Assembly: GCF_008801715.1 (NCBI RefSeq)
Contig: NZ_VZPG01000001.1
Span: forward strand, 868,001 to 932,000
Reading direction: 5' to 3'
Length of the DNA: 64,000 nt
Source of the DNA: Pseudochrobactrum saccharolyticum
GTDB lineage: Bacteria; Pseudomonadota; Alphaproteobacteria; Rhizobiales; Rhizobiaceae
Position numbers and translations under genes: made by a program. Of this stretch, positions 862 through 51,522 are shown one piece after another. The first letter of the stretch is position 1; every line of letters starts with the position of its first letter. The notes under the pieces are model-generated. The model made no database searches. It saw only the letters and a list, made by a program, of their open reading frames with translations, and was not told where the DNA came from.

Positions 862-1473
862 TCAATTTCCGTTTTTTATGAGTTTGGTACTGCGCGGCAG
901 TGCGGCAACAGTTTTTGGCGCTGCAAAAACCAGATCCACACCACGCGGGAACAAGGCCGTATTGGCCGCCCATTGTTCATTGAAACGTACCGGCAAAGCA
1001 CTTGGTGCAAATTCACGGACATGCTCAATGCCAGGCCCCTGAAGCTGCAAAGTCTGCGCACCTGCAAAGCCCTCGATCGCCATAACGATAGTGGCTGAGC
1101 GATCCGGATATTCTGATGTGCCTTTGGCGAAAACATCCAGTGGCGGCATCTGAGTAACATCGCTGACCAGCGCAAAATTCGCCTCACCAATTTCAGACAC
1201 CAGCTCAAAGCCAGTCTGAAATGCGAGCCATTCACGCACAGCGCTGCTTGCAGCCAGATGACTGTCGAGCCAGACCTTGGTGTCATGGTCAAACAATGCC
1301 TGCGCAATGGCACCGAGCTCCGGCGTCAGCGGCAATGGCGGTTGCGTCTCCGCCGTCAGCGGCTGGATGGTGCCCGGATTGGCCAGCGCATCCATCAATG
1401 CACGAAAGCAGGTCTGCGCATCATAAACGGCGTCAGTGAAACCACCTTCAAAAGCCTGATTATTAAAAGCCAT
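862..1473 (-). CDS. phnH: C-P lyase subunit PhnH
   Basis: PhnH is the dimeric subunit of the phosphonate C-P lyase core (PhnGHIJ). The 203-residue length is normal for the family. It opens MAFNNQAFEGGFTDAVYDAQ and contains FRALMDALANPGTIQPL, a typical PhnH N-terminal stretch, and later LQLQGPGIEHV. It has no catalytic motif of its own and acts as part of the complex. Its ATG overlaps the phnG stop as TAATG, and phnI follows after 3 bases, which indicates translational coupling in one transcript driven from the phnF-phnG intergenic region. Confidence 0.95.
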   Translation of the reverse strand: MAFNNQAFEGGFTDAVYDAQTCFRALMDALANPGTIQPLTAETQPPLPLTPELGAIAQALFDHDTKVWLDSHLAASSAVREWLAFQTGFELVSEIGEANFALVSDVTQMPPLDVFAKGTSEYPDRSATIVMAIEGFAGAQTLQLQGPGIEHVREFAPSALPVRFNEQWAANTALFPRGVDLVFAAPKTVAALPRSTKLIKNGN

Positions 1474-1961
1474 TAGTCGTCTCCCCGAACCATGGTGAAG
1501 AAGTCCACTTTCGTTGCCGCGGCTTCACGGCGACGCTGGGTGCTACGAACATCAAGACGCTGTGCAATTTTCTGCAACAGATCACGCTCAACAGCCTCAC
1601 GGCTCTGCGGTGCCTGCCACAAAGCATCGGCAATCGCTGCCAGACGCGCTTTTTCATGATCGCGTCCCAGCGCATAGGAGTGACCGACCAAACCTTCCGA
1701 GGAAGTACCGGACGACACACGCACAGTCGCACGGGTCACTGTCGTTTCGCCCAGATTGAACGGTGCTCCGCCACCGCCGATACGGCCGCGCACCATCACC
1801 AGTCCGGTTTCAGGGCCGCGCAGCACATCAACCTGTGGCTGCTCTGCCTGATTACTCCAGAAGGAAGCCAGCTCCTTCAATTCCGCCTTTGCCAGCAAAG
1901 CGGCAACTTTGCGCCGTTCGCCTTGCAGCTTTTCGGGTAAATTCTCGGTTTTATTCTTCAT
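1473..1961 (-). CDS. phnG: C-P lyase subunit PhnG
   Basis: PhnG is the small subunit of the C-P lyase core, acting with PhnI in forming the ribose-5-triphosphate phosphonate intermediate. The protein contains the family signature ETGLVMVRGRIGGGGAPFNLGE and GHSYALGRDHEKARLAAIADAL. I chose the ATG at 1961 (MKNKTE). An in-frame GTG three codons upstream (1970) is equally possible because neither has a strong ribosome-binding site. It is the first gene of the visible phn operon, divergent from phnF, and its stop overlaps the phnH start by one base. Control by PhnF, repressing in the absence of phosphonate or under phosphate sufficiency, is inferred from the layout. Confidence 0.94.
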   Translation of the reverse strand: MKNKTENLPEKLQGERRKVAALLAKAELKELASFWSNQAEQPQVDVLRGPETGLVMVRGRIGGGGAPFNLGETTVTRATVRVSSGTSSEGLVGHSYALGRDHEKARLAAIADALWQAPQSREAVERDLLQKIAQRLDVRSTQRRREAAATKVDFFTMVRGDD

Positions 1962-29300: not shown

Positions 29301-29600
29301 TTCACGATCTCCTTAGTGGCCGGAGACCGGTCTGTACGATACGCATTATCAATATAAGAACAAAAGTTAAAAGCGGAATCGGTCTGATGACCTTCCGCAG
29401 AAAACATGAAAGAATTTTTCATGATCACATGTCCGCCGGCTATATTTGCGGCAGTACCGACATCACGAGAGCGCCGTAAACTCTCGCCAGAGGGGCCCGG
29501 TACCGTGTTAGCTCCGTAATGATTGACCCAGCTGTATAAAACAGTTGCAAGGCGGATGCCGGTGCCTCTCACCAGCCGAATTTCCCGCAGCCTTCATACT
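29301..29600 (-). promoter_or_regulatory. Structured leader upstream of the DUF475 gene
   Basis: The 418 bases between the DUF475 start and the next gene hold no supported gene but several stem-forming segments. An outer stem pairs GTACCG (29454-29459) with CGGTAC (29498-29503) around an inner hairpin CGAGAG/CTCTCG (29466-29471 with 29481-29486). A further GGTG/CACC hairpin lies near 29560. TerC-family genes are frequent targets of the yybP-ykoY manganese riboswitch, but I cannot match its conserved loop sequences here, so the class is open. The boundaries are approximate. Confidence 0.4.
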
Positions 29601-39886: not shown

Positions 39887-40119
39887 TTTCAGGTCCTTTT
39901 TAGCCAAGGGATAAACGGGGCAAACAAACAGACAAAGCACATAGAACTCCAGCCCTCTACAAATATCATGCTTTGCAGGAGCAGGTAGCGCACTATTACA
40001 CCATATTGTTACAAAACAAACATTTATAATGTTTTGATCGCAACAAAATAACGAATAGTGATTTCGCGCCGAGGATATAGCCCGAACGTTGAATACGGAA
40101 ATGAATTTAATCGATTTGG

Positions 40120-40237
40120 GAAAAGAAAAAGGCCGCGCGGGGGAGGAGATGCGCGGCCTGATTATGGATGCGGTTGGGAGGAGGAGTACCGCATTCCGTC
40201 ATCGGGTCCAATTGGGAGGAGGAGAACGAACCCGATA
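40120..40237 (-). ncRNA. Three-hairpin anti-Shine-Dalgarno small RNA (alpha-r14 type)
   Basis: On the minus strand this segment folds into three successive hairpins, each with a pyrimidine loop complementary to a ribosome-binding site. Hairpin 1 pairs CGGGT (40230-40234) with ACCCG (40203-40207) around CTCCTCCTCCCA. Hairpin 2 pairs TGCGGT (40188-40193) with ACCGCA (40169-40174) around CTCCTCCTCCCA. Hairpin 3 pairs AGGCCGCGC with GCGCGGCCT (40130-40159) around CTCCTCCCC and is followed by TTTTTCTTTTC, a terminator. A promoter with TTGTCG, 17 bases, TATAAG lies just upstream. The roughly 118-base size, three stems and CCTCCTCCC loops match the rhizobial alpha-r14 small-RNA family. No protein-coding signal is present on either strand. 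Confidence 0.82.
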
Positions 40238-40243
40238 GGCAGA

Positions 40244-40272
40244 CTTATAACGGCAGGAGAAAAAACCGACAA
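40244..40272 (-). promoter_or_regulatory. Promoter of the anti-Shine-Dalgarno small RNA
   Basis: Minus-strand -35 box TTGTCG (40272-40267) and -10 box TATAAG (40249-40244) separated by 17 bases. Transcription would begin near 40236, at the base of the first hairpin. Confidence 0.65.
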
Positions 40273-40738
40273 TAAACAATAATGCATAACAGTCATGCAG
40301 CATTGCAAGGCAGAGTGAAACCGTTATGCGCAGCACGCACGAAAGAACTGCAGCAGCGACAACATTCTGTGGCGGCGCGATGAAAACCAGTGTCGGTTAA
40401 CCCGACTCAGTTTGCAGTGATTTTGTCCGGCTTCACGGGATTATTGAGGCTACAAATCGTACTGAAATCTCATATTTATCGAAACATTCAGCAATTATTG
40501 AAATTACAGATACTTCAAAAAATACAGTATAAAAGTAAAATTTATAAAAATCATAGAGTTAAAATCAATATTTATAAAATTACATGTCGAGAAATATCAG
40601 ATTTTTAAAACCAGCAGTAACAGAAAACAGCTAATACCATCATTTTCGTGCAATTCAAATCTTTTTATATTCAGTATTGCAGTATTTCTCATTCAGATCA
40701 TAATAAATCCATTAAGAAGATATCGGAGGAGACCCGCA
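40273..40738. other. AT-rich intergenic region without a supported gene
   Basis: Between the small RNA promoter and the 55-residue gene the sequence becomes very AT-rich, especially 40440-40620 and 40640-40720. A 72-codon frame at 40390-40608 gives a Lys/Ile-rich product that simply follows the base composition and lacks a ribosome-binding site. The region probably contains the promoter of the small membrane-protein gene. Confidence 0.6.
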
Positions 40739-41065: not shown

Positions 41066-41105
41066 AAACGGCCATATGCACCTTGCAGCATATGGCCGTT
41101 TTTTT
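41066..41105 (+). terminator. Terminator hairpin before the cystathionine beta-synthase 3' end
   Basis: AACGGCCATATG / CATATGGCCGTT with an 11-base loop, followed on the plus strand by seven T residues. It would end the transcript of the 55-residue gene. Its last bases touch the 3' end of the convergent gene. Confidence 0.8.
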
Positions 41106-50031: not shown

Positions 50032-51522
50032 ATGAGTGACCAGCATTCGCATGACAGGCACAATAATACAGCAGCGGATATCCGGCCGAACCGCCTTGAT
50101 AATTATCAGGATGTGTTTGCTGATCTGCATCCGCCGCTCGACAAACATGAAGCACTGGTAGAAGCAGACCGCTGCTATTTCTGCTATGATGCGCCATGTA
50201 TGACGGCCTGCCCGACCCATATTGATATTCCGCAATTCATTCGCCAGATCGCAGGCGGCAATCCGCAGGGCGCCGCGCGCACGATTTTGAGTGAAAATAT
50301 TCTCGGCGGCATGTGCGCCCGTGTCTGCCCGACGGAAACCCTGTGCGAAGAAGCCTGCGTGCGTGAAGCCGCAGAAGGCAAGCCCGTACGTATCGGTCTA
50401 TTGCAGCGTCATGCCACCGACCATCTGATGGAAAGCGGGGTTCACCCCTTCACCCGTGCGCCGGTTACCGGTAAAAGCGTGGCGGTTGTCGGCGCGGGTC
50501 CTGCCGGTCTTGCCTGCGCCCATGCACTGGCACGCGAAGGCCATACGGTGACGATTTTTGAAGCCCGCCCGAAAGGCGGCGGCCTCAACGAATATGGTAT
50601 CGCCTCTTATAAGAGCGTCGATAATTTTGCTGCCCGTGAGTTGGAATTCATTCTGAAAATCGGTGGCATCACTATTGAAACCGGCAAAGCGCTCGGCAAA
50701 GATATTCAGCTGGATGCCTTACGCTCCGGCTATGATGCGGTGTTTCTGGGGCTTGGCCTTGGCGGCACAAACCGACTGCATATTGCCGGTGAAGATGCCG
50801 AGAATGTGCTGGATGCCGTGCGCACCATTGCAGAGTTACGTCAAAGCTCTGACCTTTCCCGCCTGAATATCGGCAAAAATATAGTCGTCATCGGTGGTGG
50901 TATGACAGCCATTGATATTGCTATTCAGATCAAACGACTGGGCGCAGAGAATGTGACGCTGGCCTATCGCCGTGACCGCGAACATATGAATGCCAGCCTC
51001 TATGAACAGCAACTGGCGCAGACCGAAGGTGTGGTGATCCGTGATTGCCTGCAACCGGAGGAAATTCTGCTCAACGATCAGGGGCAGGCAATTGCGATCC
51101 GCTTTGCCCAGACCGAGCAGCGCGAAGGCAAACTGGTTGCCACCGGTGCTACACTCACCTTAGCCGCCGATCAGATTTACAAAGCCATCGGCCAAAAACT
51201 CGACGGCCAGGGCCTTGGTGCCAGTGGCATGGAAATGAGTGGCGGGCGGATTAAAGTCGACACTGAAAACCGTACCAGTGTGAAAGGCATCTGGGCTGGC
51301 GGCGATTGTGTGGCAGGCGGTCAGGATCTGACTGTTGCCTCGGTGCAAGACGGCAAGATCGCCGCGCAATCCATCCATCAGCATCTGATGCAATTGCCGG
51401 AAGCCGTGAGCGGCTTTGCCGAGGCCGTGCTGGCAGCCAATCGCAAAGATCTGCCGAGCCTCCATCCGCACGCACCATCGGTGCACAACCACACGACCTC
51501 ATCTTCGGCAAAGGATCACTGA
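50032..51522 (+). CDS. preT: NAD-dependent dihydropyrimidine dehydrogenase subunit PreT
   Basis: The electron-input subunit of the uracil/thymine-reducing dehydrogenase. The 496 residues have an N-terminal Fe-S domain (CYFCYDAPCMTACPTHIDIPQF, CARVCPTETLCEEAC), then an FAD/NAD(P)-binding glutamate-synthase-small-subunit-like fold. FAD binds at VVGAGPAGLACAHALAREG (near 153) and NAD(P)H at VVIGGGMTAIDIAIQ (near 286). GIWAGGDCVAGGQDLTVASVQDGK ends the FAD domain. The ATG at 50032 follows GACAGGAG. PreA starts 1 base after its stop, giving translational coupling. It works with PreA to make dihydrouracil. Confidence 0.92.
   Translation: MSDQHSHDRHNNTAADIRPNRLDNYQDVFADLHPPLDKHEALVEADRCYFCYDAPCMTACPTHIDIPQFIRQIAGGNPQGAARTILSENILGGMCARVCPTETLCEEACVREAAEGKPVRIGLLQRHATDHLMESGVHPFTRAPVTGKSVAVVGAGPAGLACAHALAREGHTVTIFEARPKGGGLNEYGIASYKSVDNFAARELEFILKIGGITIETGKALGKDIQLDALRSGYDAVFLGLGLGGTNRLHIAGEDAENVLDAVRTIAELRQSSDLSRLNIGKNIVVIGGGMTAIDIAIQIKRLGAENVTLAYRRDREHMNASLYEQQLAQTEGVVIRDCLQPEEILLNDQGQAIAIRFAQTEQREGKLVATGATLTLAADQIYKAIGQKLDGQGLGASGMEMSGGRIKVDTENRTSVKGIWAGGDCVAGGQDLTVASVQDGKIAAQSIHQHLMQLPEAVSGFAEAVLAANRKDLPSLHPHAPSVHNHTTSSSAKDH

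Follow-up and report, generated by a model that had tools for sequence, protein, structure and literature searches.

Does the array of C-rich hairpins on the minus strand of this locus constitute a regulatory RNA of its own and, if so, what would switch it on and which messengers would it silence? The window (the whole stretch of Pseudochrobactrum saccharolyticum DNA analysed, 64,000 nucleotides) had been annotated, from its letters, as carrying here a member of the rhizobial alpha-r14 family that acts as a broad translation repressor. The best explanation, and a highly probable one, is that of a stand-alone, trans-acting ar14 RNA of the NfeR1 type, with its own promoter, activation by an LsrB-like regulator and loops that block start sites, the mechanism being taken by analogy from NfeR1. 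This explanation is founded on the sequence, the family membership, the predicted structure and the conservation of the RNA, its promoter and an upstream element; that the RNA is transcribed here, what activates it and which messengers it targets are inferred.

The RNA, its promoter and its upstream element

In a covariance-model search, the RNA matches the full RF02344 model (positions 1-123 of 123) above the curated cut-off (Table 1), which supports the membership claimed in the initial annotation; the comparison of constant loops with variable stems and the genus-wide conservation (see below) agree with it. The extent annotated from the letters, 40237-40120, is close to that of the Rfam match. 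The predicted fold consists of the anticipated minus-strand hairpins, which are 38, 32 and 30 bases long and expose C-rich loops, at an energy of -44.4 kcal/mol compared with a shuffle mean of -25.2 (sd 3.0; z -6.5; none of 200 shuffles as good). The motif CCUCCUCCC is unpaired in all three loops of this fold, with one base different in the third. The 11-mer CTCCTCCTCCC has two exact copies in the whole window, both inside the ar14 RNA, compared with a mean of 0.01 in shuffles, none of which (0/100) reached two. Hence, the notion of one motif in three copies stands for the first two loops, which are exact, and gives way at the third, a variant. The third hairpin is an intrinsic terminator by its stem and the U-run directly after it, the T tract of the annotation; a generic terminator scan of the window, restricted to loops of 3-8, did not list it. 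An antisense ORF of 74 aa, 40058-40282(+), overlaps the RNA, has no Pfam match and is taken as chance. Elsewhere, the window holds a terC RNA (RF03067) at 29448-29508(-), with 62.0 bits for a cut-off of 39.9.

Table 1. Features of the window RNA and of three copies in phage-type surroundings
Feature	Position	Strand	Evidence and remarks
ar14 small RNA (Rfam RF02344)	40125..40240	minus	76.5 bits, cut-off 58.8, E 5e-12; predicted 5' end near 40237
Hairpin 1	40200..40237	minus	Predicted fold; loop CTCCTCCTCCC at 40224-40214
Hairpin 2	40166..40197	minus	Predicted fold; loop CTCCTCCTCCC at 40186-40176
Hairpin 3, terminator stem	40130..40159	minus	Predicted fold; variant loop CTCCTCCC at 40148-40141
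U-run of intrinsic terminator	40126..40129	minus	Sequence and Rfam match; after third stem
-35-like TTGTCG	40267..40272	minus	Read from sequence; inside conserved block
-10-like TATAAG	40244..40249	minus	Read from sequence; TATATG in 3/7 genus genomes
TGCA-N5-GCAT	40295..40307	minus	About -70 to -58 from predicted start; in 7/7 genus genomes
27-base element ATGCTGCATGACTGTTATGCATTATTG	40277..40303	minus	Contains palindrome TGCATgactgttATGCA and T-N11-A box
Phage ar14 copy beside helicase	L170:3846-3966	minus	
Phage ar14 copy beside helicase	L161:1528-1647	plus	
G496 prophage ar14 copy	L364 around 8280		

Just upstream, the TTGTCG-17-TATAAG promoter lies exactly where it had been annotated, with 6 bases between the -10-like hexamer and 40237. 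The site escaped a consensus promoter scan in which the -10 hexamer must end in T. In addition, a conserved upstream element, 40307-40277, that had gone unnoticed in the initial annotation was recognized, in which TGCA-N5-GCAT runs into the palindrome TGCATgactgttATGCA, with the T-N11-A box in the palindrome, just downstream. In Sinorhizobium meliloti, the NfeR1 promoter is bound and activated by LsrB and repressed by NtrC (PMC10746234; PMC7143759), the LsrB box being TGCA-N6-GCAT / T-N11-A at about -72 to -60 (PMC10746234). The exact published operator is not present at the window copy, where the spacer is one base shorter and the box stands 83 bases before the first loop. The window RNA has a sigma-70-type promoter of its own and a conserved upstream stretch, as in the NfeR1-type promoter, with different hexamer letters.

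Conservation follows these boundaries. ar14 is found over the cut-off in all seven genomes of the genus Pseudochrobactrum, and with distances counted from 40240 and gaps scored as differences, identity to the window across them is 95% in the RNA and 94% in the -40 to 0 block, reaching 99% from -60 to -40 in the six genus relatives. In the flanks, from -200 to -60 and from 118 to 320, it drops to 49-69%; at greater distance (-300 to -200 and beyond 320), there are patches of 85-88%. Seven positions of the conserved stretch vary within the genus; at the hairpin-2 pair 40188/40174, U-A in the window and C-G in 4/7 genomes, both positions change together.

Comparison of 28 members, drawn from phages and a variety of genomes, revealed near-invariant loops and changeable stems. 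When arms were swapped between members, pairing with the own arm averaged -17.9, -18.3 and -27.0 kcal/mol for hairpins 1, 2 and 3, compared with -8.6, -8.5 and -16.3 for arms of other members, and the own arm was the best partner in 19, 21 and 20 of 26 members, counts that are not independent since related sequences are included (two of the 28 were dropped, the regex not finding exactly three loop clusters in them). Loop bases are predicted to be unpaired at 0.85-1.00 in these 26 members. The conservation in relatives on which the annotation had staked its reading was thus found: near-invariant loops, co-fitting arms and a paired U-A/C-G change, pointing to stems that are variable in letters and conserved in pairing.

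Stand-alone and DUF1127-linked copies

The family is widespread in the order, where a sample of 199 genomes, searched under a stricter filter at the cost of weak matches, gave ar14 in 81 at E<=0.01 and over the cut-off in 29 (0/14 in controls). In a second genus of the family (g116), all 35 genomes have it over the cut-off. With the window RNA as query, blastn returned 13 Rhizobium plasmid records, 72-84% identical over at most 50% of its length. In the open-access literature, no paper joining Brucella, sRNA and ar14 was found. The window's own genome gives seven ar14 matches at E<=1, two of them over the cut-off; the weaker ones may be chance, because 3/14 control genomes also match at E<=1, none over the cut-off. 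Tandem weak ar14-like matches (35.9 and 31.2 bits, below the cut-off) lie at G000:C2:110481-110688 (L003, L004). Of the related loci, three have runs of anti-Shine-Dalgarno loops that exceed the family's three: L024 (nine, ~1500-1850(-)), L033 (eight, ~1500-1850(-)) and L034 (four, ~1466-1610(+)).

The second copy over the cut-off, L002:1501-1622(-) (G000:C3:67827-67948), does not figure in the initial annotation. It sits 3' of a gene for a 51-residue DUF1127 protein (PF06568, 54.5 bits). Such a neighbourhood is familiar from the CcsR RNAs of Rhodobacter sphaeroides, which carry CCUCCUCCC loops and are processed from the 3'-UTR of a DUF1127-type mRNA; CcaF1 of Rhodobacter is itself a DUF1127 protein. 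It could be asked, then, whether the window RNA is also a processed 3'-UTR fragment of the CcsR kind rather than an autonomous gene, the more so as a rough regex places a DUF1127-like frame upstream of 17/31 ar14 loci (the genome's own two and 29 of the order sample) and of 16/30 in g116. However, the window copy and its six genus orthologues have no DUF1127-like frame and have the upstream element and promoter instead; furthermore, the nearest upstream gene on the same strand ends at 41104, ~860 bases off, with a terminator-like hairpin directly after it. Among 73 loci (31 + 6 + 6 + 30) surveyed by regexes, 39 have a DUF1127-like frame, 18 have the palindrome and none has both, five loci without the regex triple being counted as neither context. 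Pfam confirmed DUF1127 for the frame of L002, the other frames being assigned by regex, and at L037 the palindrome is present in the alignment and was missed by the regex. Processing from such a messenger is therefore very unlikely for the window copy, which is of the palindrome kind.

A cis-acting role is the least probable of the alternatives, and very improbable. On this reading, the RNA would serve the HAD hydrolase gene downstream (39940-39215) as its leader or attenuator. That gene is on the same strand, with its longest frame ~185 bases beyond the RNA, but a strong predicted terminator lies between the two, and of the nearest look-alikes in g116, 70-72% identical over RNA and promoter, the one read, L349, adjoins different frames. 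Relatives of this HAD hydrolase, 86-99% identical, occur in six records: three of Pseudochrobactrum, an unclassified Rhizobiales isolate (99%), a Brucellaceae MAG and one titled Bacillus subtilis. The last (L066, JAHREI010000001.1) has a Pseudochrobactrum-like locus and is probably mislabelled. By these relatives, the genome belongs to Pseudochrobactrum or stands very close to it.

The stand-alone reading is thus retained for the window copy, which adds a genus-wide, promoter-bearing member to the ar14 family. Such genomes hold two kinds of ar14 RNA, the stand-alone and the DUF1127-linked, probably under different control.

Copies on viral contigs

The search pattern, two long loops plus a third, occurs in 46 viral contigs. 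By eye, 42 of these matches look like ar14, and cmscan of 16 of the 46 loci placed 13 over the ar14 cut-off and three below. L150, L164 and L178 were rejected as ar14, since they look by eye like repetitive coding sequence, as was L185, with two hairpins. Two phage groups have the RNA immediately beyond a helicase gene (phrog_16), with which it converges, and before an exonuclease gene (phrog_10477), in a replication module that comprises a clamp and, in the two loci scanned, either a Cas4-type exonuclease or a Sak4-like protein. Relatives of either helicase were collected at 122 viral loci (for the second helicase, the best 80 of 91), 116 of which extend at least 250 bases beyond the helicase. 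Exactly three opposite-strand motifs lie within 700 bases in 40 of these, one motif in a single locus and none in 75; in the RNA-less relatives that were read, other sequence fills the slot, as with phage cargo genes. In one bacterial genome, G496, the RNA sits on a contig of 1.9 Mb, surrounded by frames that share 67-98% identity with phage proteins (helicase 98%), and this RNA is identical by eye to the copy of L163.

Other scans were negative: one phage copy had no blastn match in 50,697 phage records, cmscan of the helicase region found ar14 in 0/5 named phages and 0/3 prophage loci, and in 297 genomes of the family, a regex found three loops near 0/19 relatives of the helicase. Given these negative results for named phages, prophages and family genomes, only some clades have the cargo, and a general phage role of ar14 is disfavoured. 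No mention of phage-carried ar14 was found in the open-access literature, outside which most subscription papers fall and where the term 'phage' misses 'bacteriophage'.

The ribosome site CACGAGGAG, complementary to ar14 loops, recurs at several phage genes. A best loop match of 6 bases occurs at the starts of 3/7 frames in L170, 4/16 in L364 and 3/11 in L161, and of 0/7 in L143, read on one strand. Judging from complementarity, the phage itself could be a target of the copy that it carries.

The 27-base element of the window was sought in 31 distinct viral upstream sequences: six, of one clade, match it at 21-22 positions, two at 18 and 15 at 16-17, all 23 within 2 bases of the window's distance and each reached by at most 2/500 shuffles. 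The remaining eight, without a match, are L160 (an ar14 copy, 12 positions), both copies of L154, L168, L150, L164, L178 and L185. The shuffle test is lenient: 16-18 of 27 positions are matched by 4/45 bacterial upstream sequences as well, and 15 by two sequences overlapping a DUF1127-like frame (4 and 7 of 500 shuffles). Scores of 16-17 would by themselves prove little, and those of 21-22 appear convincing.

The LsrB box constitutes stronger evidence than the element. In its exact form, TGCA-N6-GCAT, it is present in 10/30 distinct viral upstream sequences (shuffle rate 0.15%), 82 bases before the first loop in nine and 88 in L154. In g116, it stands near that distance in 1/28 distinct upstream sequences (L351, 81 bases), and the single occurrence among 26 upstream sequences of the order sample is at another place. 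In the phage group without the box, several members share GCATATCAGCTATGC with the g116 copies L354, L357 and L358; the flanks of L358 are, by look, an acetyltransferase-like frame and an insertion-sequence ATPase-like frame, not phage genes. Being interrelated, the viral upstream sequences represent few events.

Over ~195 bases of promoter and RNA, the closest bacterial copies of L161 (82% identical), L149 (78%) and L163 (74%) are in g116. The window is 60-63% identical to the helicase-linked phage copies (58% to L149), and L154 and L168, on other viral contigs, are 62-65% identical to any bacterial copy compared. These resemblances make it fairly probable that temperate phages of the same family captured the RNA together with the host promoter and operator and kept it as cargo by the helicase, so that a prophage would add a translation repressor with a loop array under the host's LsrB-like activator. 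Should phage and host RNAs of this kind indeed share an operator, a cell that becomes lysogenic would contain an altered amount of a broad post-transcriptional regulator. While the finding in the window is correct and ordinary, the family being already described, the phage copies with their switch are less expected and are the part deserving specialist attention.

Start-site pairing and comparison with known systems

Pairing with a loop at -10 kcal/mol or better was found for the start regions of 13/39 long ORFs of the window compared with 1/39 internal-start controls, the start codon being the best of several in both groups. Exact loop complements of at least 6 bases occur at 6/39 start regions versus 0/39 in controls. 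Candidate start sites for pairing in the window are those at 50032, 20877, 25800 and 13299. This enrichment represents weak consistency with the proposed action, because any anti-Shine-Dalgarno loop complements Shine-Dalgarno sites; complementarity makes a wide target range possible for the window RNA and does not imply that the cell uses it. By analogy with what is published for NfeR1, broad translation repression, as annotated, is plausible. ntrB, a published target of NfeR1 (PMC10746234), was rejected as a target here: its start region, CCCTGAAGGATGCTGCCTGATG, has a best duplex of -4.2 kcal/mol, whereas the median over 39 genes of the window is -8.1. Complementarity to ntrB concerns a single target and is no family-defining trait.

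The course of events would be as follows. Leftward transcription would proceed from the sigma-70-type promoter, with the upstream element probably bound by an LsrB-like activator of the LysR type, and would end at the third hairpin. Each of the three C-rich loops is similar to the anti-Shine-Dalgarno end of 16S rRNA; on part of the mRNAs, they would then base-pair with G-rich ribosome-binding sites and thereby deny ribosomes access. Here, the mechanism of NfeR1 is carried over to the window RNA and its targets are not. In NfeR1, three redundant anti-Shine-Dalgarno loops silence mRNAs at translation initiation regions (PMC10746234; review PMC7143759), and the RNA is reported as Hfq-independent (PMC10746234; PMC7143759). 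What the annotation deemed an unusual design is the published, defining architecture of the family (PMC10746234). Alternatively, the three loops might mainly sequester an RNA-binding protein or another RNA. Loops far better conserved than stems are compatible with a protein site too, and CcaF1 is presented, in the title of a paper, as a small RNA-binding protein; against this, a translational fusion is no longer repressed once all three NfeR1 loops are altered (PMC10746234), leaving sequestration very improbable and the blocking of start sites as the preferred role of the loops.

Among known systems, the closest is alpha-r14 / NfeR1 (SmelC397, Smr14C2) of S. meliloti, also RF02344, with the same three hairpins, CCUCCUCCC-type loops and variable stems, a sigma-70-type promoter of its own and a TGCA...GCAT box at a similar place. 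The two differ in the box spacer (5 in the window copy versus 6), in the promoter letters (CTTAGAC-N17-CTATAT as published for NfeR1) and in the ntrB start site, not complementary in the window organism; moreover, six copies are reported in S. meliloti (PMC7143759) versus the two over the cut-off here. The CcsR RNAs resemble the second copy, L002, in their DUF1127 association and differ from the window copy, which lacks a DUF1127 gene and has its own promoter. SmelA075 and SmelA099, of the 'cuckoo RNA' superset, have the same CCUCCUCCC loops on three or four hairpins with diverged stems (PMC3927594) and belong to other loci than the window copy. Finally, AbcR1 and AbcR2 share anti-Shine-Dalgarno motifs and, in S. 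meliloti, LsrB activation (PMC10746234), but are of another family and, according to the same paper, not Hfq-independent like NfeR1 (PMC10746234), and the window RNA matches ar14 only.
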